NCBI RefSeq assembly: GCF_009831625.1
Contig: NZ_WUUS01000001.1
Coordinates: 62,301 to 126,300 of the forward strand
From: Halobaculum saliterrae
GTDB taxonomy: Archaea; Halobacteriota; Halobacteria; Halobacteriales; Haloferacaceae
Direction: 5' to 3'
DNA: 64,000 nucleotides
In this document: piece by piece, positions 1 to 16,180 of the stretch
Layout of the letters: every line of letters begins with the position of its first letter
Numbering within the stretch: the first letter of the stretch is position 1
Notes under the pieces: generated by a model
What the model was told of the DNA's origin: nothing
Seen by the model: only the letters and a program-made list of their open reading frames with translations
Databases searched by the model: none
Translations under genes and position numbers: made by a program

Positions 1-480
1 GTATGATGCCATCCGCCACATCCAGTGCGTACACATGCCTGTCATCACTCCCGACGTAGACCGTGCCGTCAGCCACCGCTGGTGATGATCTCACCCTGGA
101 ACCGGTTTCGAACTGCCACCGTTGGGTGCCATCCGCCACATCCAGCGCGTACACATGCTCGTCATCACTCCCGACGTAGACCCTGCCGTCAGCCACTGCC
201 GGCGATGATCTCACTCCGTCATCGGTTTCGAACCGCCACCGTTGGGTGCCATTGGCGGCGTCCAGCGCGTACACATGCCCGTCATCACTCCCGACGTAGA
301 CCGTGCCGTCAGCCACTGCCGGCGATGATCTCACCCGGGAATCGGTTTCGAACTGCCACCGTTGGGTGCCATCCGCCACATCCAGCGCGTACACATGCTC
401 GTCATCACTCCCGACGTAGACCCTGCCGTCAGCCACTGCCGGCGATGATCTCACCCTGGAATCGGTTTCGAACTGCCACC
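1..480. repeat. Tandem 120-bp repeats coding propeller blades
   Basis: Four units in exact 120-bp register start at 1, 121, 241 and 361. They are nearly identical at the DNA level, differing at scattered positions such as atgctcgtc/atgcccgtc. Each unit encodes one 40-residue blade of the minus-strand gene. Such DNA identity points to recent duplication or gene conversion. The array probably continues left of the window. Confidence 0.9.
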
Positions 481-2080: not shown

Positions 2081-3973
2081 ATGGATCTCATTTCACTGGA
2101 TATTCAAGGATACAAGTCGATAAGGGAGAACCAATCGATAGACATTGACAATTTCACCGTATTGTTCGGGGGAAACAATGTCGGCAAGTCTAGCGTTATC
2201 GATGCACTCAAAGACTACCGAGAAGTGTTCCCGGTCGCGAACCAGGTTGACTCAGGATGGGCCCACTCACTGAATACTAATAAGGAATTACAGGGTGAGA
2301 TCAGGTTCAATTTGGAGTTTCTACTCGAAAGTCACGAACACGAGAAGTTCCTTGATGCCGTAAACGAGGAGACTGAAGTCAGAGACCGTGATGTGGATCG
2401 TTGGAAGCAATCGGACGACTTCCGTAAGGTTACTCACGAGCTCGTTCTTCGATCAGGCCAGAATCCTAGAGGAAACCTGCAGGGAACATCCGTCTTCTCT
2501 GCTGAAGTAGGGGATACTGAGGTTGACATTCGAAGGGGGGGCCTCTCGAACAATGACGCAAAGTATCTGAATTTTAATAAGATCGATGTGGAAGATCTTG
2601 ATGAAGATCAGCCGGAATATCACTCCAAACGACGCGCATTCGGTCCTTTGCTCGAAATACTCGAGGATTCAATGAGTTCATGGACCTTCATCGAAGCGTT
2701 CAGAGAGCCCACCGATCGGTTGGAAGCGAGACGCCAAGAGTCGCTTCGAGGTGATGGAAATAATCTGACCCAGGTATTGTTGACTCTCTCCGGCGAAGGG
2801 AGCGACGAATTTGAGCGTGTGTCAAATGAATACGAGAACATCATGTCCGGAGTGGAGGGGATTCGGGCTAAACTCCCCACCGACGACAAGACCACAGTCG
2901 TCGTTGACGAATATGCGTACGACACTGCTTTCGAGCTATCAGAAATTTCTGCCGGCTCAAAAGAAATACTCACGCTTATCACCCAGATTATTCTTGCGCA
3001 GCGTGATGCTGATCTCCTACTGGTAGAAGAACCAGAATTGCACCTCCATCCGGGAGCTGAGCGCAAGATACTCGATCTTATTCGGAGGGTGATTGATCAA
3101 TCATCGCAGAATCTCCAGGCAGTCGTGTCTACTCATTCAAATATATTCGTCCACCACTTAGATATTGATAATATATATCGGGTGGAACGAGACGGCAATA
3201 CAGATATTACAAAGACGGCATCAAGTTCGGTTGGAGCCGACCTACGTGACCTTGGCTACGAGTACGCCGGAATGTTCCAGTCAGAAGGGGTCGTTGTCGT
3301 GGAGGGACTCACCGATCGAGTGGCTCTTAAGACAATCGGACGTCGATGTGGGTTTGACTTCGATGAGTACAACATCGGTGTTCTTGAGATGGGGTCTGGG
3401 TCCCAACTGGTGAAGCACTCTCGCCCGGTCGTCCGACTATTCAGGATGTTCAATATTCCGTACATGTTCATCTGCGATTCAGATATTGGTGAGGCACTAA
3501 AGAAAGATAACGAAGATACACCCCCAAGTACTCCTAATGCGATCGAGGGCCGCCTCGTCGGCCACCTGAATGGAGACAGTTCACGTCAGGACGAGTGGGG
3601 GAATGAACCGAACGAGAGAGTCCATGCGTGGAGAAATGAAGAGTTAGAGCACTACATCCTCCAAGACGAGGCAGCACTTGCGGACAATTTTCATCCACTC
3701 AATGAAGAGAAGGTATGCGAAATCCTCGAAGAGGCTCGAGAGGCTGATGATTCTCCGGATGATCAACTCAAAGCCATCTGTGACGAAGGGCGCCAAGACC
3801 TAGGAGACACGACCGAAACAATGGTAAAAAAGGCCGATGTTCAGGACATCTCTGAAAGAATCGACCTAGAAAGTATTCCAGACGAGTTTTTCGATGTGTT
3901 GGGACAGGTTGCGGGACTGGTCGATGCGGACCACATCATTAGGGAGGAGCGTCCCGATGGGGGGGCTGAGTGA
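2081..3973 (+). CDS. OLD-family ATP-dependent nuclease (AAA ATPase + TOPRIM)
   Basis: A 630-aa protein with an SMC/ABC-like ATPase in front of a TOPRIM nuclease domain, the OLD arrangement. Walker A is GGNNVGKSS (30-38), an ABC-type signature SAGSKE is at 290-295, and Walker B LLLVEEPELHLHP is at about 312-324, with the family's PELHLHP. TOPRIM begins with VVVEGLTDR (405-413; Glu408, Asp412) and has DSD at 466-468, the expected metal ligands. OLD proteins are DNA nucleases. GajA of Gabija is a defence example, but no UvrD-like GajB partner is present here. The stop overlaps the next gene (GTGA/TGATG), so the two are translationally coupled. Composition is more AT-rich than the core genes downstream, consistent with transfer. 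Confidence 0.88.
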   Translation: MDLISLDIQGYKSIRENQSIDIDNFTVLFGGNNVGKSSVIDALKDYREVFPVANQVDSGWAHSLNTNKELQGEIRFNLEFLLESHEHEKFLDAVNEETEVRDRDVDRWKQSDDFRKVTHELVLRSGQNPRGNLQGTSVFSAEVGDTEVDIRRGGLSNNDAKYLNFNKIDVEDLDEDQPEYHSKRRAFGPLLEILEDSMSSWTFIEAFREPTDRLEARRQESLRGDGNNLTQVLLTLSGEGSDEFERVSNEYENIMSGVEGIRAKLPTDDKTTVVVDEYAYDTAFELSEISAGSKEILTLITQIILAQRDADLLLVEEPELHLHPGAERKILDLIRRVIDQSSQNLQAVVSTHSNIFVHHLDIDNIYRVERDGNTDITKTASSSVGADLRDLGYEYAGMFQSEGVVVVEGLTDRVALKTIGRRCGFDFDEYNIGVLEMGSGSQLVKHSRPVVRLFRMFNIPYMFICDSDIGEALKKDNEDTPPSTPNAIEGRLVGHLNGDSSRQDEWGNEPNERVHAWRNEELEHYILQDEAALADNFHPLNEEKVCEILEEAREADDSPDDQLKAICDEGRQDLGDTTETMVKKADVQDISERIDLESIPDEFFDVLGQVAGLVDADHIIREERPDGGAE

Positions 3974-5919
3974 TGTCCGAGGACTCGTCTACCGATCTGG
4001 CAATGCGGTTCGACCTGAATGTACTCAAGCACCTCGGGCTCCGAATGTACACCAATCTCCCCGCTGTTGTCTCAGAGTACGTCGCCAATGCCTGGGACGC
4101 TTGGGCGACTGAGGTCTCAATCGAAATGCCACAGGACGAATCGATGTCTCCCGACTATCAGATCGTTGTTGAAGATGATGGGCAAGGGATGACCAGACAG
4201 GAGGTCAACAATGAGTTCCTTGTTGTCGGCCGCAACCGTCGGTCCGACGAGGACAAGGATTACGTCGAGCGAGATGACGGCAGCCGCCGAAAAGTGATGG
4301 GAAGGAAAGGCATCGGGAAACTCGCTGGTTTCGGAGTTGCGGATATCGTCCGAATCAGGACGGTCAAAGATGGTGAATTCGTCGAGTTCGTGCTTGACTA
4401 CGGTGAAATGCAGAACCAGGCAAAACAAGGAGAGGATACCACAACCACGTATCACCCGAAAATTGTCGACGAAGGCGTGACAAACGAGGACAGCGGAACA
4501 CGAGTTGTTCTGACCGAATTCGACCGCACTCAACGTCCGGTCGCTCGATACGTGCGAGAGCGACTCGCTAGGAAGTTCAGCGTCATTGGAGATGAGTTCG
4601 TAGTCCGAATAAACGAGGACGAAGTCACCGGTGACGAACGGAACCTGAAAGATCGGTGTGAGTTTAAGACAACCTTCGATGACGAGACGATCAACGACGA
4701 GGGACATCAAATATCGGGATGGATAGGTACACTCCCGAAGCCAACACCGGACGATATTGAGGGTGGTGTGGCTGTGATGGCACGGGGGAAGATCGCCCAG
4801 AAGCCGATCACATTCGGTGTGGCCGAAGGAGGGACCCGGGGACAGATGGCACTCCAATACCTCGTCGGCGAAATCCATGCCGACTTCCTCGACGATGAGG
4901 AGGACCTGATCGCCACTCACCGCAGCGAAGTGATGTGGAACAAGTATCCGGCCAATTCACTCCAAGAATTCATCGTAGCGGAGATCAAAGATATCTGTTC
5001 GCAGTGGCCGAAAAGACGTCGCGAAGAACAGATGGAAGAGCTTCGTTCTGAAGAGTCCTACAACAAGCACATAGATCCCTTAGACGATCGGGAGCGTGAG
5101 ATCGCGGACGACTTCCTTGCAGAGTTGGCCGAGAAGGGTGATTACGAGGATGACACACTGGACGACATGGCTGCGTACGTCTCGAGTGGAGTCCAACAAC
5201 GTTCTTTTCAGGAACTTCTCCGAGAGATCGAATCGTCTGATATTTCGAACACCGACAAACTGGTTAAGTTGTTCGACCAGTACGAGGTCCTCGACGCGAT
5301 GAACTCCCTCCGAATCGTCCGTGGCCGGTTCCAAGCCATCCAAAAGTTCGAGGAGCTCATAGAAGAGAGCGACTCGAATCTCCAAGATCTCCACGGGTTC
5401 GTGAGTGACAACCCGTGGTTGATCGACCCGAGGTGGGACTACCTCGACGAAGAACTCGACATTCGAGAAGAGATTAAGCGGAATTATCCTAACGTCGATC
5501 GTGAGAGTCGGGTAGGGTTCATTAGTCTCGGAGACGCGGACACAATTCGATTGGTCGATATCCGCCAGACAGATCACACCATCGACAAGAACGATCTCGA
5601 CGAGTTCAAGGATTATGTTGACTTCCTCCGTTCTATCCAAAACATGGACCCCGTCAACGGACGTGATATCGAAGGGTACATAGTCGCACAAGGGAGTGAG
5701 GAGACGCGTCAAGTAAACCAAGAGATTCGGCGGATGAAGATGGATGACATGCGACTCCGAACGTACGGTGACATCAAAGAGATTGCTCGTCGGTCACATC
5801 AGGCGTTCATCGATGTCTTCGAACGGAAGGCCAAGCGCACAGAGAGTCAGATGCTACAATCGTATCTCTCCGAGTCCGAACAGAGTGGCCTACACGATTT
5901 CGTCACCGGGCAGATTTAG
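3973..5919 (+). CDS. GHKL (Hsp90/MutL/MORC-like) ATPase, probable restriction-system component
   Basis: A 648-aa protein starting at the ATG inside the TGATG overlap with the OLD gene; a GTG three bases earlier is the alternative. The N-terminus is a Bergerat-fold ATPase: N-box EYVANAWDA (Glu35, Asn39), EDDGQGM (67-73) and GRKGIGKLA (110-118). The middle is charged and probably helical. The C-terminal 180 residues contain DNPWLIDPRWDYL and a strand LVDIRQTD (about 527-534), recalling the layout of PD-(D/E)XK nuclease domains but with D-x-R where E-x-K is expected. GHKL ATPases occur in predicted R-M systems beside C5 methylases, and some are catalogued as BbrUII/HgiDII-type restriction proteins (from memory). 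With the OLD partner and the convergent methylase this looks like an ATP-driven restriction or defence locus. Confidence 0.82.
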   Translation: MSEDSSTDLAMRFDLNVLKHLGLRMYTNLPAVVSEYVANAWDAWATEVSIEMPQDESMSPDYQIVVEDDGQGMTRQEVNNEFLVVGRNRRSDEDKDYVERDDGSRRKVMGRKGIGKLAGFGVADIVRIRTVKDGEFVEFVLDYGEMQNQAKQGEDTTTTYHPKIVDEGVTNEDSGTRVVLTEFDRTQRPVARYVRERLARKFSVIGDEFVVRINEDEVTGDERNLKDRCEFKTTFDDETINDEGHQISGWIGTLPKPTPDDIEGGVAVMARGKIAQKPITFGVAEGGTRGQMALQYLVGEIHADFLDDEEDLIATHRSEVMWNKYPANSLQEFIVAEIKDICSQWPKRRREEQMEELRSEESYNKHIDPLDDREREIADDFLAELAEKGDYEDDTLDDMAAYVSSGVQQRSFQELLREIESSDISNTDKLVKLFDQYEVLDAMNSLRIVRGRFQAIQKFEELIEESDSNLQDLHGFVSDNPWLIDPRWDYLDEELDIREEIKRNYPNVDRESRVGFISLGDADTIRLVDIRQTDHTIDKNDLDEFKDYVDFLRSIQNMDPVNGRDIEGYIVAQGSEETRQVNQEIRRMKMDDMRLRTYGDIKEIARRSHQAFIDVFERKAKRTESQMLQSYLSESEQSGLHDFVTGQI

Positions 5920-7165
5920 ATTCTGCGTGTAACATCGAAGGGAACGATTCCACGAGGGTTGTCGCAACCGCTCGAATCAACTGTGGCGGGACAGCGTTAC
6001 CGATTACTCGCTCTGCTTTTTCATTGATCGACGGGAGCGAGAATGACTCCGGAAATCCCATGAGGAGTGCGGCTTCCCGGAAGGTAATCGCACGGTTCTC
6101 CCGTGGGTGAGTGAATCGTCCACTACTGACATTTGTGCAGCGTGTAGTAAGAGTTGGCGCTGGTTCATCCGCTGCCATGATCCCGTAGGCCGATGCTGCC
6201 CCAGTACTCAGATCTTGGTGACAATCCTTGATCTTATCCTCGTCGTCCGTTCCTCTCAGGTCTTTCCAGCTACCACCGTGTTTCCTGATCGCTTGGATCA
6301 TTTGTACCGTACTATCATGGTGGCGGCGGGATCGGTGGGCAGGATCGTCTGGGAACCCATCGATTCCTGTCTGAGCATGACCAAGCTCCAGATCTTCTTT
6401 AAGATCGTCGCGGTTGATTCGCTCGTCAACCGTCACCCAGTCTTCTCTGTCTGTCGCAGCAATCGTGGGGTTCGCGTGTGTGGGGTCGGGGAGTGTGACC
6501 GAATCATCATCGACACCGTACACGAACGCACCGATGCTCCGACGTCGGCGTTGTGGAACGCCATAGTCTGCAGCATTCAGCACAGATAGTTCGCGTCCGT
6601 ACCCACCTCGCCTCGAGTCATCCCGGTTGATTTCACCCATTCGACGGAGTAACCAGTCAACGTATGCTGTAGGAACATCGTCACCAGCATTGACGATATT
6701 ACTCACGTTCTCGAAAAGGACAAGCGGGGGAACCTCTTCTTCGACGAATTCAACGAATGCACGAAGCAATTCGTCTTTCGGCTCCCCATCCGGCCATGGA
6801 TCTGTGTCCCGGAGTGCACTGAAGTTCTGGCAGGGTGGACACCCACAGATGAGGTCTATTTCCCCCGTCTCAATACCGAAGTGGTCACGTATATCTGCGA
6901 ACGTAACAGTTGGAATGGAATCGGCGGTATCGTAACCCGTGTAGTCCCGACTGAGGTCAGCTCGAAGTGGCTCATTGAACGTGACCTCGCCGGAAAAATC
7001 GAGCGAATTCGAACCACAGAGATTCTCTGAATACACGTCGAGTGCCGATTCATCGGCGTCAACCGCCCCGACGACTTCGAATCCGGCCTGAAGGAGCCCC
7101 ATACTCGCTCCACCGGCCCCACAGAATAGATCCACAGCCTTCGGTTTAGCATCACTCGTCCCCAT
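5903..7165 (-). CDS. DNA (cytosine-5-)-methyltransferase
   Basis: A complete 420-aa C5 methylase. It transfers methyl from S-adenosylmethionine to C5 of cytosine in a specific DNA site. Motif I is DLFCGAGG (12-19). Motif IV GCPPCQNFS carries the catalytic Cys112. Motif VI is ENV (152-154), motif VIII QRRRR (205-209) and motif X GNAVPP (389-394). The stretch between VIII and X is a full-size target-recognition region, so the enzyme is probably active. It converges on the GHKL gene and overlaps its end by 17 bp, which fits a modification partner for the OLD/GHKL pair. A weak TATA-like CTTTTGTGG lies about 28 bp upstream. The recognition site cannot be read from sequence; GTCGAC is one guess if the HgiDII link holds. 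Confidence 0.93.
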   Translation of the reverse strand: MGTSDAKPKAVDLFCGAGGASMGLLQAGFEVVGAVDADESALDVYSENLCGSNSLDFSGEVTFNEPLRADLSRDYTGYDTADSIPTVTFADIRDHFGIETGEIDLICGCPPCQNFSALRDTDPWPDGEPKDELLRAFVEFVEEEVPPLVLFENVSNIVNAGDDVPTAYVDWLLRRMGEINRDDSRRGGYGRELSVLNAADYGVPQRRRRSIGAFVYGVDDDSVTLPDPTHANPTIAATDREDWVTVDERINRDDLKEDLELGHAQTGIDGFPDDPAHRSRRHHDSTVQMIQAIRKHGGSWKDLRGTDDEDKIKDCHQDLSTGAASAYGIMAADEPAPTLTTRCTNVSSGRFTHPRENRAITFREAALLMGFPESFSLPSINEKAERVIGNAVPPQLIRAVATTLVESFPSMLHAESKSAR

Positions 7166-7420: not shown

Positions 7421-7777
7421 ATGTCAAAGTCGACTCCGAAACATAGCCTCTTTACCCACGTCAAAGAGAAACTTGCGTGGATAATCGCCGAACACCGCTC
7501 TCCCAGTGAAGCGATCACCCTCACTCGCCACCTCACGGACGCTGACGAAGGCCGATACGAACTGCTCGGGTTGGTCAACAACTGTGAGATCGCGCTCTAC
7601 TGGGACTACTTCTGGAACCACGTCGTCGCCGTGAACTTCGACGAAAGCGGCGTCGACGATCTCGCCCGGGATGTCCCCGAAGATATCCGCTACGCCGGTC
7701 GGAAAGTGTACTTCGAGGATGTCGACCTCGACGACTGGAACTGGGTCCACCCACGGCACCAATGGCGCGCGGAGTGA
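7421..7777 (+). CDS. Hypothetical protein upstream of Orc1/Cdc6-like gene
   Basis: A 118-aa protein of no family I recognise, rich in aromatic and acidic residues, with EIALYWDYFWNHVVAVNF in the middle and DDWNWVHPRHQW near the end. I chose the ATG at 7421 because a TATA-like TTCTAATACC lies about 28 bp before it. An in-frame ATG at 7301 would add 40 residues that look non-coding. It has no signal peptide or membrane segment. The 3' end overlaps the next gene by 16 nt, so both are probably co-expressed. The pairing with an AAA+ ATPase could mean a replication or defence accessory, but the sequence gives no direct clue. Confidence 0.6.
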   Translation: MSKSTPKHSLFTHVKEKLAWIIAEHRSPSEAITLTRHLTDADEGRYELLGLVNNCEIALYWDYFWNHVVAVNFDESGVDDLARDVPEDIRYAGRKVYFEDVDLDDWNWVHPRHQWRAE

Positions 7778-8781
7778 CCGCGTCGGTCCCGCGGGTCCTG
7801 GAACTCGACCGCGTCCCCGAACGGATGCCACATCGGGACGCCGCGCTCGGCCAGCTGGCGAACGCCCTCGACCCGCTCCGGTCGGACCGGCCGGCGTATC
7901 CGATCTGCATCTCCGGACCGACCGGTGCGGGAAAGACGGCCCTCTCGCGATTCGCCGTCACAGAACTTCGTCGGGAGACCGCGGTGAACACCGCTCATGT
8001 CGACTGTCTGCGGACACGCTCGCGTGCCGCTATCCTTGAAGAGGCATTAGTCGACGCCGACTTGAAGACGCGTTCATCGCCGAAAGCGAACGCCGCGTCG
8101 TCGTACCTCGCGCAAATAGAGGACGCCGACTCGCCGATCGTGCTGACCCTTGACGAGGCGGAACACATCGAGGACGAACACCTACCGCACGTCCTCTTTG
8201 AGACAGATGGCGTGACGCCGATCTTCGTCGTCCACGAGTACGAGCGATTCGCAGCGCGCTTAGACTCCGCGACCGCCTCGCGGCTCCGCACCGGCCCTCA
8301 TATCGAACTTGATCGGTACAGCCAACGCGAACTGGTCGATATCCTCCAGGCGCGCGTTGACGCTGGCGATCTCTCCGGGATCACGGGCGGGACGCTGGAG
8401 GTGATCGCGGACACCGCCGCCGGGAACGCGCGGGAAGCGATATCGATCCTCCGAGAGGCCTACGTCGAGGGTGAGGCCCGCGACGAACGAGTCACGCCGG
8501 CGTTGATCGGCGACGTCCGCGAACCGGCGATGGAGTCGATCCGGCGGTACAATGTGGAGCGACTGGACACGCCGCATCGACTGTTGAAGCACATGATCGA
8601 CGACGCGGGCAAGATTAGGGCGGGCGACCTCGCGGACCTCTTCGAGGTGGAGTACCCGGATGCGGACGGTCGCGACCGCCGCCGGTATTTGAACGTTCTC
8701 GTGCGGTACGGGTGTATCCGGAAACAGGGGAGCGGAAGGGGGACGCGGTATCTTTCGATCAGTGGTAGCGAAGATGCTTAG
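7762..8781 (+). CDS. Orc1/Cdc6-like AAA+ ATPase
   Basis: A 339-aa protein. Its layout fits the Orc1/Cdc6 family: short N-terminus, AAA+ module and C-terminal winged helix. Walker A is GPTGAGKT (52-59), and Walker B IVLTLDEAEHI (about 126-136) carries the Asp-Glu pair. ISILREAYVEGEA and the tail RRRYLNVLVRYGCIRKQGSGRGTRYL resemble the lid and the winged helix. These proteins bind replication origins and load MCM; haloarchaea carry many divergent copies on plasmids and integrated elements. It is shorter than chromosomal Orc1 proteins. I found no perfect origin-recognition box nearby, though an iteron-like array lies 1.1 kb downstream. A non-replicative ATPase role is also possible. Confidence 0.75.
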   Translation: MARGVTASVPRVLELDRVPERMPHRDAALGQLANALDPLRSDRPAYPICISGPTGAGKTALSRFAVTELRRETAVNTAHVDCLRTRSRAAILEEALVDADLKTRSSPKANAASSYLAQIEDADSPIVLTLDEAEHIEDEHLPHVLFETDGVTPIFVVHEYERFAARLDSATASRLRTGPHIELDRYSQRELVDILQARVDAGDLSGITGGTLEVIADTAAGNAREAISILREAYVEGEARDERVTPALIGDVREPAMESIRRYNVERLDTPHRLLKHMIDDAGKIRAGDLADLFEVEYPDADGRDRRRYLNVLVRYGCIRKQGSGRGTRYLSISGSEDA

Positions 8782-8830: not shown

Positions 8831-9736
8831 TTATTCGAATCCGTGCAACTTTCGATGTTCTCGAAGGAAGAGTTCTCCTGGAGACTTATTTGCCTCACTA
8901 GGGACCTCAATGTTCTTCCCTTCGAATTCCAAAACCTCGTCTGGGGTTGCAATCTCCTCCGAATCTCCAACAATCACTTCGTAATCGTCAGAAATTGCAA
9001 ACCACCCCACATCGAACGCCCAGTGGTGTAGTTTACACAGACCAATTCCATTCGACGCGACATCTCTTCCTCCCTTACTCTTCGGGTAGATATGAGCTGC
9101 TTCAATTTCCGGATTACCGATTGGTGACCGTCGCTCCGAACCGCAGATCGCACACGAGTAATCATATGCCGACCGGACTTTCCGCTTGAAAGCCGCCGAG
9201 CGTTTGAGTTGAGAAGAATCCTCTCGCTCAGGTTTCTCGATCAGTGGCTCCTCTGAGTCTTCCTTGACCTCGGTTGCAGCGGCGAGATACTCATCCCAAG
9301 TGGCTAAGCCCAGCTTTTGGAGGTCGAATTTGTATTTCATTCTGTCCTCCGACAATTCGTTTTCGTATCTTGCGTCGGTGACTTCCACTAATCCCTCATA
9401 CTCGTATTCGTCGAGGCCGTCTTCACTCGTGAATAGGTAAATCGGAATCTCTTCGTGTTCTGCCTCGACCATCGCACGGTTGGCATTCGTGAGCATTTGG
9501 TCGCCTTTCTCAGGCTCGCCTTCGCCGTCGTAGGTGAGTTCCGTTTCCGAGGTAAATTCGTCTTTGTAGATAGCGCCCTCATTTGCATTTATAATCACAT
9601 ACCGACCAGCCGAGGGATTTCGATAGGTGATTCCCTTGAATTGGTATCCGAATTTGGTGTCGAACACCGATTCGACCTCTTCTTGAGTAAGGACTTCACC
9701 AATCGCCAGATCCCTGATAGGGCCTCTGGAACTCAT
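8831..9736 (-). CDS. SRA-HNH type IV restriction endonuclease (ScoMcrA-like)
   Basis: A 301-aa protein with two parts. Residues 10-120 look like the SRA-type base-flipping domain of ScoMcrA proteins: GYQFKGITYRN, YVIINANEGAIYKDEF and LTYDGEGEPEKGDQ then N-x-A. Residues 190-245 form an HNH nuclease: C195-x2-C198, AAHIYPKSKGGRD (His215), NGIGLC (Cys234) and HHWAFD (His237/His238). Enzymes of this build cut DNA carrying modified bases such as 5-methylcytosine or phosphorothioate. The gene is monocistronic and faces the integrase block. It sits in the same island as a C5 methylase, so its specificity must spare the self-mark. Confidence 0.85.
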   Translation of the reverse strand: MSSRGPIRDLAIGEVLTQEEVESVFDTKFGYQFKGITYRNPSAGRYVIINANEGAIYKDEFTSETELTYDGEGEPEKGDQMLTNANRAMVEAEHEEIPIYLFTSEDGLDEYEYEGLVEVTDARYENELSEDRMKYKFDLQKLGLATWDEYLAAATEVKEDSEEPLIEKPEREDSSQLKRSAAFKRKVRSAYDYSCAICGSERRSPIGNPEIEAAHIYPKSKGGRDVASNGIGLCKLHHWAFDVGWFAISDDYEVIVGDSEEIATPDEVLEFEGKNIEVPSEANKSPGELFLREHRKLHGFE

Positions 9737-13666: not shown

Positions 13667-16180
13667 ATGCCAAGCTTCGACGTGTCCTTCGGCACGCACC
13701 TCTTCGAGTTCGAGGAGGACGCCGGGGACGGAGTCATCAGGGGCTGGGACTGGGTCCAGCGCTCGGTCTGGAAGAACATCGACTTCGACCGGGCGATGCT
13801 GCTCGACCTGCTCGACAGCGGGACGCTCGAGATACCCGAGTACCAGCGGGGCTACGCGTGGGAGGAACAGCAGTGGGAGGACCTGTGGGTCGAGCTGGAG
13901 CCCGCGTTCGCGGAGTCGATCGCACGAAACGACCTGACAGAGGTGTTCTTCGGGTCGGTGTTCACCGCCGACGTCGACAACCGGACGGCCGAGGTCATCG
14001 ACGGCCAACAACGCATCACCACGGTGTCGCTCGTTCTCAAGATCATCCAGGAGCTCCTCGGCGACCTCGACGGGATCGACCCCGGGACCGAGGACGACAT
14101 CGCGTCGGTCGCGACCCGCCAGGAGACGCTCATCGAGACCCTGTTCCTGGAGAATCCGGGGTCGACGAACCCGCGAACGAAGCTCACCCTCAACGACCAC
14201 AACAACGAGTTCTATCAGGCGCTGATGGGGGACACGGCGGACAGGCTGTCGTACATCACCGACCGGGAGAGCGTCCACGGGAACCGCAAGCGGAACGCGA
14301 TCACGATCAGGCAGTACGCGAAGCGCTTCCGGATCGGGGACGACGAGTGGGAGGACATCGAGAACGACAACCGCTCGTTCGACGACTCCAACGACCGGCT
14401 GATCGAGGCGTACGACTACTTCCGAAGCAGGATCGAGCGGGAGATCGCCGAGACGTACGACGACGACGCCTCGCGGGCGCGCGCACTCATCAACCTGAAG
14501 GAGTACCTCCTTCACGCGTTCGTTGTCGGGCACTTCCACGTCTCCCAAGGGCATCCGTCGCTGCTGATGGACATCTTCCAGATCCTCAACGACCGCGGGA
14601 TGGATCTCAATCAGGTCGACATCATCAGAGCGCGGATCGTGGCGCGGCTGCGCGAGGACGCGAAGCCGGCGATCGAGGCGGAGAACCTCCAGCGGTGGAA
14701 GGACATCGTCGACCTGTTCGACGGGGACTACGGCGACGTGAGCGACTTCCTCGTCGACACCATCTCGATCGTCGACGAGCGCGTCGACGGTCGGTCGGAG
14801 GTGTCCGATCACCTGCTGGAGGCGTTCGTGCTCGATCCCCGCGAGGACCAGACGCTGGAGAGCCAGCTGAAGACGCTCGCCAGCACCGAGGAGTTCCTCA
14901 AGACGCTGGAGCGGTACAGCACGTACTACCACAACATCGTCTACCCGTACGACGACGGACTGTACTTGGAGGACGACCGACGCCAGCGGACGTGTAACGA
15001 CATCCTCCAGCGACTCCAGTCGCTTCGGACCAGCCAGTGGCGACCGCTCGTGTTGGCGGCGTACGCCGTCGCGCGGGAGAGCGACGCGACCGACCGGGCG
15101 GAGTCGGTGCTCCTCCGGACGATGCGGGCGGTGGAGAACGTCACCTTCCGACAGGTGCTCTCCAGCATCAACCCCAACCGGCTGGAGGGTATCTACGCCG
15201 ACGTCGCTCACCGGTTCACCCGGGAGGACGACGTGCTCGACGTGAACGTCGAGGCGGAGCTGTACACCGAGTTCGAGAGCGTCTACCCCGGCGTCGTCGG
15301 GACCTCGTTCGTCGAGACGCTGGTGGAGACGTCGTCGGTGAACACCAGATACGCGAAGGCGCTGCTGTGGAAGCTCACCGACGAACACACCGAGACCGAC
15401 GCGATGTGGCGACGGTCGCTCAACATCAGCGAGGTGCACCTGGAGCACGTCTTCCCGCAGTCCCCGTTCCTCGACAACATCGGATCGTTCGACCGGTACT
15501 ACTGGTTCGAACGGTTCTTCGACGCGGACGACCCCGAGGATCCGCTCGCCGAGACGATCGCGGGGATCGTCGACGCCGGCGACGACGAGCTCCTGATGGA
15601 CATCTGTGAGGAGTACTACATCTCAGATCTGGGGAACCTCGGCCTCCTGTGGAACCAAGACAACGTGACCGGACAGAACCACCCGCTGTCCCGGAAGCTC
15701 CCGGTGTACCAGCGTTCCGACTTCGACGAGGCGGTCGTCAACGAGTTCTTCGGCGCGGATCGGTTCAGCGAGGTGGCGGCCACCACCCTCCATCGCTGGG
15801 TGGAGCTCAACGCCGCGCGGGGGACGACCGAGAACTGGGAGTCGCGGGCGGACGCGCTCGGGCTGTCGTGTGCCGACGGGGACGAGTTCGCCGCCGAGGT
15901 CGAACGCGAGCTGGCTGCGCTCGAGGAGACCGAGTCCTTCGGGGAGGCCGTCGACGAGTACGACCGGTACTGGACGCGGGAGGCGCTCGCGACGCGGAAG
16001 GCGGAGCTGGTCGAGCTGGCGCTGGAGTCGCTCGCGTTCCGCTACGAGGACGCCGACGGCGAGCGCGTCGCCGAGTTCGCCGAGTGGGACCGCGACCAGC
16101 TCGAGACGGCCGTCCGCGACGAGATGGACTCACGGGCGCGCGTGATCGTCGCCGAGAACGACGGGTACCGCGACGACTGA
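13667..16180 (+). CDS. GmrSD-like DUF262/DUF1524 protein (type IV restriction)
   Basis: An 837-aa single-chain GmrSD homologue. The N-terminal DUF262 (GmrS-like, ParB/Srx fold) shows IPEYQRGYAW (56-65) and IDGQQRITT (111-119), the nucleotide-binding and core motifs. The long middle is helical. The DUF1524 HNH part (GmrD-like) has HLEHVFPQ (591-598) and DLGNLGLL with following Asn (about 654-663). About 170 charged helical residues follow. GmrSD enzymes cut glucosylated hydroxymethylcytosine phage DNA with NTP, and other family members have other modified-DNA targets. No partner gene is present. Composition is GC-rich like the core, so it may be older here than the AT-rich island before it. 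Confidence 0.87.
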   Translation: MPSFDVSFGTHLFEFEEDAGDGVIRGWDWVQRSVWKNIDFDRAMLLDLLDSGTLEIPEYQRGYAWEEQQWEDLWVELEPAFAESIARNDLTEVFFGSVFTADVDNRTAEVIDGQQRITTVSLVLKIIQELLGDLDGIDPGTEDDIASVATRQETLIETLFLENPGSTNPRTKLTLNDHNNEFYQALMGDTADRLSYITDRESVHGNRKRNAITIRQYAKRFRIGDDEWEDIENDNRSFDDSNDRLIEAYDYFRSRIEREIAETYDDDASRARALINLKEYLLHAFVVGHFHVSQGHPSLLMDIFQILNDRGMDLNQVDIIRARIVARLREDAKPAIEAENLQRWKDIVDLFDGDYGDVSDFLVDTISIVDERVDGRSEVSDHLLEAFVLDPREDQTLESQLKTLASTEEFLKTLERYSTYYHNIVYPYDDGLYLEDDRRQRTCNDILQRLQSLRTSQWRPLVLAAYAVARESDATDRAESVLLRTMRAVENVTFRQVLSSINPNRLEGIYADVAHRFTREDDVLDVNVEAELYTEFESVYPGVVGTSFVETLVETSSVNTRYAKALLWKLTDEHTETDAMWRRSLNISEVHLEHVFPQSPFLDNIGSFDRYYWFERFFDADDPEDPLAETIAGIVDAGDDELLMDICEEYYISDLGNLGLLWNQDNVTGQNHPLSRKLPVYQRSDFDEAVVNEFFGADRFSEVAATTLHRWVELNAARGTTENWESRADALGLSCADGDEFAAEVERELAALEETESFGEAVDEYDRYWTREALATRKAELVELALESLAFRYEDADGERVAEFAEWDRDQLETAVRDEMDSRARVIVAENDGYRDD

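Follow-up and report, generated by a model that had tools for sequence, protein, structure and literature searches.

What might be the function of an operon in which the gene for an OLD-family nuclease runs into that for a GHKL ATPase, with a C5-cytosine DNA methyltransferase gene converging on the pair? The three genes lie in a stretch of 64,000 nucleotides from Halobaculum saliterrae (the window), and a preliminary description had taken them for a three-part restriction-modification (R-M)-like system, in which the TOPRIM nuclease replaces a helicase/nuclease partner. The arrangement of the genes was read correctly. The OLD and GHKL genes share one base (TGATG) if the latter begins at ATG 3973, its best start; GTG 3970 is also possible, and gives a GTGA overlap. 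The methyltransferase gene is complete and overlaps the end of the GHKL gene by 17 bp, and all the genes are intact at the positions first given, in agreement with Pfam. The features are collected in Table 1.

Table 1. Features of the OLD-GHKL-methyltransferase locus, its surroundings and related loci (positions are those of the window unless another locus is named).
Feature	Position	Strand	Details
OLD-family ABC ATPase/TOPRIM nuclease gene, P0001	2081-3973	+	630 aa, intact
OLD TOPRIM/helical-domain catalytic residues	3302-3649	+	E408, D412, D466-S-D468, E523
GHKL ATPase restriction protein gene, P0002, BbrUII/HgiDII / paraMORC3 type	3973-5919	+	648 aa, intact
Putative C-terminal Shedu-like PD-(D/E)xK domain of P0002	5380-5772	+	about residues 470-600; motif degenerate
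Lost catalytic positions of P0002	5515-5565	+	G515 for D, D529 for E and R531 for K of active relatives
C5-cytosine DNA methyltransferase gene, P0003	5903-7165	-	420 aa, intact, all main motifs
SRA-HNH protein gene	8831-9736	-	SAD_SRA 4e-8, HNH_2 5e-12
Orc1/Cdc6-like genes	7762-8781; L026 5856-6842; L032 7175-8155; L052 4427-5413; L029 6495-7385; L069 9683-10693; L075 11012-11983		
Bacterial orc1/cdc6 match	L098 10356-11483		Planctomycetota genome G484; TIGR02928 E 7e-40
GmrSD-like (DUF262) protein	13667-16180		GmrSD_N E 9e-32
Tandem near-identical units	1-480		left edge; units of about 120 bp
Druantia/DISARM-like locus	L068 1028-15707		genome G050

OLD nucleases occur in Gabija, retrons and PARIS-like systems, and also as single genes. 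P0001 has the N-terminal ABC ATPase and the C-terminal TOPRIM domain with E and DxD that characterize the family, as judged from Pfam (AAA_15, 2e-24; AAA_21; OLD-like_TOPRIM, 1e-9), from its residues and from an alignment with XccOLD, which also supports the TOPRIM residues. The ATPase motifs can be read in the translation (Walker A GGNNVGKSS, signature ISAGSKE, Walker B LLVEEPE, H-loop STHS), and the acidic residues of the C-terminal part align with the two-metal site motifs of Class 2 OLD nucleases (PMC6755086); K583 is the candidate equivalent of Bp OLD K562. Both Walker motifs, the signature, the H-loop and E408, D412, D466, D468 and E523 (P0001 numbering) are kept in all three of the OLD proteins that are partnered with a GHKL protein.

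On sequence grounds, P0002 is not an orphan ATPase: it belongs with the BbrUII/HgiDII-type proteins, in which a GHKL ATPase is combined with a Shedu-like PD-(D/E)xK nuclease and which are usually encoded beside a C5 methyltransferase. The NCBIfam profile NF050001 (BbrUII/HgiDII) matches residues 10-621 along profile positions 2-650 (E 4.7e-103), with a score of 345.9 bits that does not reach the curated cut-off of 550 bits; judged by this profile, P0002 is a clear homologue that lies outside the equivalog. It also matches Pfam HATPase_c_3 and, with E 2e-46, the PADLOC model REase_II (Type II REase). Eight GHKL residues (E35, N39, D68, G70, G72, G113, G115 and K116) are invariant in 25 relatives. 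Foldseek gave MORC2, MORC3 and Hsp90 at E values of about 1e-12 to 1e-11, and a PDB sequence search gave Hsp90 fragments and nothing else.

Proteins of this kind have been described before. M.HgiDII is an m5C methyltransferase that modifies GTCGAC (PMC5867850); paraMORC3 was given by Iyer et al. 2008 as a GHKL protein with an RE-fold C-terminal domain (PMC2292703); and VcSduA, a GHKL-Shedu protein, is anti-phage, its defence being abolished by either E27A in the GHKL domain or K557A in the nuclease (PMC12137116). The sole match to P0002 in a phage search was a homologue in a P2-like phage, annotated as ParaMORC3 and encoded beside a Dcm gene. Because of BbrUII/HgiDII, paraMORC3, VcSduA and this phage homologue, GHKL plus C5 methyltransferase has to be regarded as an R-M type that is already known. 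The pairing of GHKL ATPase and methylase to which the preliminary description drew attention is thus real, but the type to which it belongs had been missed.

P0002 appears to depart from that type at its C-terminus. Among 36 homologues, whose sources include haloarchaea, plasmids, viral contigs and Planctomycetota, 25 have a recognisable D...(D/E)xK motif there, and among the C-terminal domains of 26 relatives Pfam finds SduA_C nine times, HSDR_N six times and NucS_C twice. The OLD-partnered proteins (P0002 and those of loci L026 and L027) read G, D and R at the three catalytic positions, and the Mrr-partnered proteins of L028 and L052 read K, E, M or K, E, L; the Pfam nuclease families gave no match to the C-terminal domains of these five. 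The alignment of the motif is unambiguous, since across the domain P0002 has 44% identity with the protein of L054, which reads D, E, K (‘RRIDF...VVEIK’, against ‘SRVGF...LVDIR’ in P0002). A confident AlphaFold2 model of the domain (pLDDT 85) has an alpha/beta core, for which the best Foldseek match was MspJI (E 5e-3), with low TM-scores; Card1, Cap4 and Nt.BspD6I were further weak PD-(D/E)xK matches, and APOBECs were among the top ones. Because these matches are weak and mixed with APOBECs, the fold assignment is based mainly on the motif and Pfam. A search with the profile of the C-terminal part gave weak matches alone, including Shedu, NucS and nuclease domains of the UvrD type. The cis PD-(D/E)xK active site of P0002 has apparently been lost, with the OLD protein of the same operon as its replacement. 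The earlier idea of a replacing TOPRIM nuclease survives as regards a nuclease acting in trans; what is replaced appears to be the GHKL protein's own nuclease.

We consider it fairly probable that the locus is an HgiDII/paraMORC3 (GHKL-Shedu)-type R-M system whose nuclease has moved to another gene, the OLD protein supplying cleavage in trans. The methyltransferase would mark host sites with m5C, and a dimer of the GHKL protein would sense and clamp unmodified target DNA in an ATP-dependent manner, its dead nuclease domain perhaps acting as a platform that binds DNA or a partner. The GHKL protein would then recruit or license the OLD protein, which would cut the DNA, in a hand-over resembling that of MutL acting through MutH. 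A three-part, R-M-like set with the OLD nuclease as trans effector, as first suggested, is supported, and the OLD-GHKL pair recurs.

How often, then, does this pair recur? Among 391 Halobacteria genomes, 24 had a match to the GHKL protein at 1e-10, with identity above 60% in two genomes (G079 and G252) alone, which also hold the two best OLD matches in the class. The closest relatives of P0002 that were found are 74% and 67% identical to it, and both show the same motif decay and are encoded in an OLD-GHKL operon that has a C5 methyltransferase gene not far away. The OLD gene is directly upstream of the GHKL gene in the window, L026 and L027, an adjacency beyond chance. Only one further member, of the Mrr type, came from another draw of 392 genomes that overlapped the first; a genome-wide scan based on the GHKL alignment yielded four loci of the clade in haloarchaea, two of them in genomes that had been met before, and two distant fragments from bacteria. 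No pair of OLD and HgiDII-type GHKL genes was found outside Halobacteria in the genome, plasmid and viral collections searched, nor any OLD-GHKL pair among the plasmid records examined; the OLD alignment gave one weak match to viral contigs. The variant is rare, and is known here from Halobacteria alone, at three loci. Rare co-occurrence had been named in the preliminary description as an argument against a system; the trio is indeed rare, but it is consistent among the nearest relatives.

P0003 matches Pfam DNA_methylase (2e-46), with PCQ, ENV, QRR and GN motifs in its translation. It is 57-64% identical to the methyltransferases of three loci with HgiDII-type GHKLs (L030, L031 and L032) and of L026, and has a 53% identical relative in a DISARM-like locus on pHTIA. 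Since this places its nearest relatives both next to other GHKLs of the HgiDII type and in a DISARM-like setting, methyltransferases are exchanged between systems. Across the three OLD-GHKL loci the methyltransferase is less constant than the pair itself: G079 has a P0003-like enzyme (60%), with an IS-like gene in between, and that of G252 (L027) is of another subfamily and is split by a frameshift. It could be argued from this inconstancy, as the main rival explanation has it, that OLD and GHKL form a phage-triggered abortive-infection pair, the methyltransferase protecting the host indirectly or being a chance neighbour. Several OLD systems (Retron-Eco8, PARIS) do work by abortive infection, the methyltransferase gene is convergent and not co-transcribed, the enzymes of L026 and L027 are of different subfamilies, and an unrelated GHKL gene follows the OLD gene in the Druantia-like locus L068. 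However, nearly all of the archaeal, bacterial and viral loci examined have a C5 methyltransferase gene adjoining the HgiDII-type GHKL gene, and in none of the three OLD-GHKL loci is such a gene more than about 2 kb away; we regard this explanation as unlikely.

Cleavage by a partner in trans, the reading preferred here, is consistent with what is seen elsewhere in the clade. In L052 and L053, the gene that stands upstream in the place of OLD encodes a nuclease of the Mrr type (Mrr_cat E 2e-25 and 4e-23) with an intact D...QxK motif. The GHKL protein of L083/L099 is without a C-terminal domain; its gene is followed after 2 bp by an HNH gene, with DISARM drmA and drmB adjoining. A maximum likelihood tree of the N-terminal part only has the form ((Mrr: L028, L052),(L054 intact,(L027,(L026,P0002) OLD))), with supports of at least 97; L054 is placed between the OLD and Mrr groups at 100/97, and an AU test rejected the OLD- and Mrr-partnered proteins as one clade (p-AU 0.0105). 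Because the intact L054 stands between the groups and the joint clade is rejected, two losses of the cis nuclease are likelier than one. There appears to have been an active ancestor, with two independent losses, each accompanied by a different trans nuclease, although the key member L054, which has an intact motif, neither an OLD nor an Mrr partner and no methyltransferase gene within 10 kb of it, comes from a MAG and carries a frameshift. The motif is dead or absent in all six proteins with a partner nuclease, as against 5 of the 30 without one (Fisher p 2e-4, kinship ignored); a sign test cannot reach significance, since the phylogenetically independent comparisons are three only.

Alternatively, the locus might be a decayed HgiDII-type R-M system, upstream of which a Class 1-like OLD gene that is independent of it lies by chance. 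The nuclease motif is dead, standalone OLD genes are frequent in haloarchaea, and dead motifs are also found with no adjacent OLD, Mrr or HNH gene, in L034, L035, L036 and L088. Such decay is nevertheless improbable, given that the OLD-GHKL order, with overlap or near-overlap, is kept in three genera at 54% and 44% OLD identity, that the GHKL ATPase motifs and full reading frames are clearly under constraint, and that in the sister lineage an Mrr gene stands where the OLD gene does here, upstream of the GHKL gene. It should be added that a MutY-like glycosylase gene is immediately downstream of the dead-motif GHKL genes of L034-L036; its product may be a trans partner of a further kind, or may serve mismatch repair of deaminated m5C. 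Least probable of all is that the altered C-terminal domain still cuts through a non-canonical site, the OLD protein merely helping, for example by degrading cut DNA: D529 and R531 are conservative changes, other PD-(D/E)xK enzymes tolerate unusual residues and L029 has D for E in an otherwise intact-looking motif, but in each of the three OLD-partnered proteins glycine stands for the metal-binding aspartate, and the equivalent of the catalytic lysine is essential in VcSduA (PMC12137116).

A wider view can be put forward tentatively. The OLD protein may represent an undescribed class, so far haloarchaeal, which acts as the sequence- and m5C-gated effector of a GHKL restriction enzyme without a nuclease of its own; the cutting module would be exchangeable (cis Shedu-like, trans OLD, trans Mrr or trans HNH), with at least two independent swaps, and the combination of GHKL and TOPRIM would be a functional parallel to type II topoisomerases. 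What licenses cutting by OLD proteins is mostly unclear, and if it were tied here to the methyltransferase and the GHKL clamp, this would be an OLD nuclease that tells self from non-self by a defined rule. A comparison, within a single clade, of members paired with OLD, paired with Mrr or cutting by themselves amounts to a natural experiment on how GHKL ATPases, the relatives of MutL, MORC and Hsp90, hand DNA to a nuclease. That a GHKL protein hands DNA over to a separate nuclease, in company with a methylase, is a principle proposed by Iyer et al. 2008 (PMC2292703), and it is directly testable with these loci. The R-M type and this principle are already known; neither an OLD/TOPRIM enzyme in that role nor a recurrent cis-to-trans swap of nucleases in one clade was found in the literature searched.

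Some features of the neighbourhood are of interest in their own right. The SRA-HNH protein is about 30% identical to counterparts encoded next to the C5 methyltransferase in L052 and L053, both of them Mrr-GHKL loci; it was considered as a fourth component and left out, because it has no match in L026 or L027. Many HgiDII-type GHKL loci have a gene for an Orc1/Cdc6-like AAA ATPase no more than a few kb away, and two standalone OLD genes have one as a neighbour. In bacteria Orc1/Cdc6 is unusual; the Planctomycetota example is separated by about 0.9 kb from a pair of C5 methyltransferase and GHKL genes. L068 is a separate case of OLD beside GHKL, and comprises a DrmMI-type adenine methylase, a REase-like gene, OLD, the unrelated GHKL and a DruE-like helicase. 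The same island of the window encodes the GmrSD-like protein, possibly a modification-dependent restriction enzyme, and tandem repeats lie at the left edge.

The trio corresponds to no named system in the libraries or papers searched, as had been claimed, and can be compared with several. Gabija (GajA OLD plus GajB UvrD-like helicase), to which it had been likened, also has an OLD ABC ATPase/TOPRIM protein with a second ATPase in the operon, but here the OLD protein is paired with a GHKL protein, and there is a methyltransferase besides. Membership was rejected because there is no GajB-like gene: the downstream gene is the GHKL gene, no helicase was found among the seven neighbouring proteins scanned, and there is no sign of descent from Gabija. 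PARIS has separate AriA (AAA) and AriB (TOPRIM) genes, whereas P0001 unites AAA and TOPRIM in one protein; the DrmA helicase and DrmB of DISARM were not found among the scanned neighbours of the trio. OLD classes 1-5 share domain architecture and catalytic residues with P0001, and clade U8 is confined to Halobacteriales, the order of its host, but none of the described classes has a GHKL/methyltransferase partner (PMC12796447). The GHKL/MORC R-M operons of Iyer et al. 2008 likewise combine a GHKL ATPase, a separate endonuclease and a methylase; they contain helicases, HKD, HNH, EcoRII-like, Vsr and RE-fold enzymes are among the nucleases named, and a search of the text showed no OLD partner (PMC2292703). 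With paraMORC3 and the GHKL-Shedu proteins (PMC12137116, PMC2292703), P0002 shares the N-terminal GHKL ATPase, the S5-like middle domain and, putatively, the C-terminal Shedu-like domain, but its nuclease residues are missing and a separate nuclease gene is present, whereas VcSduA is reported as a single-gene defence (PMC12137116). Finally, the locus resembles BbrUII/HgiDII Type II R-M in its full-length match to the GHKL restriction protein and its adjacent C5 methyltransferase, and differs from it in the score below the cut-off, the loss of the PD-(D/E)xK motif (G515, D529, R531) and the extra OLD gene in the operon.
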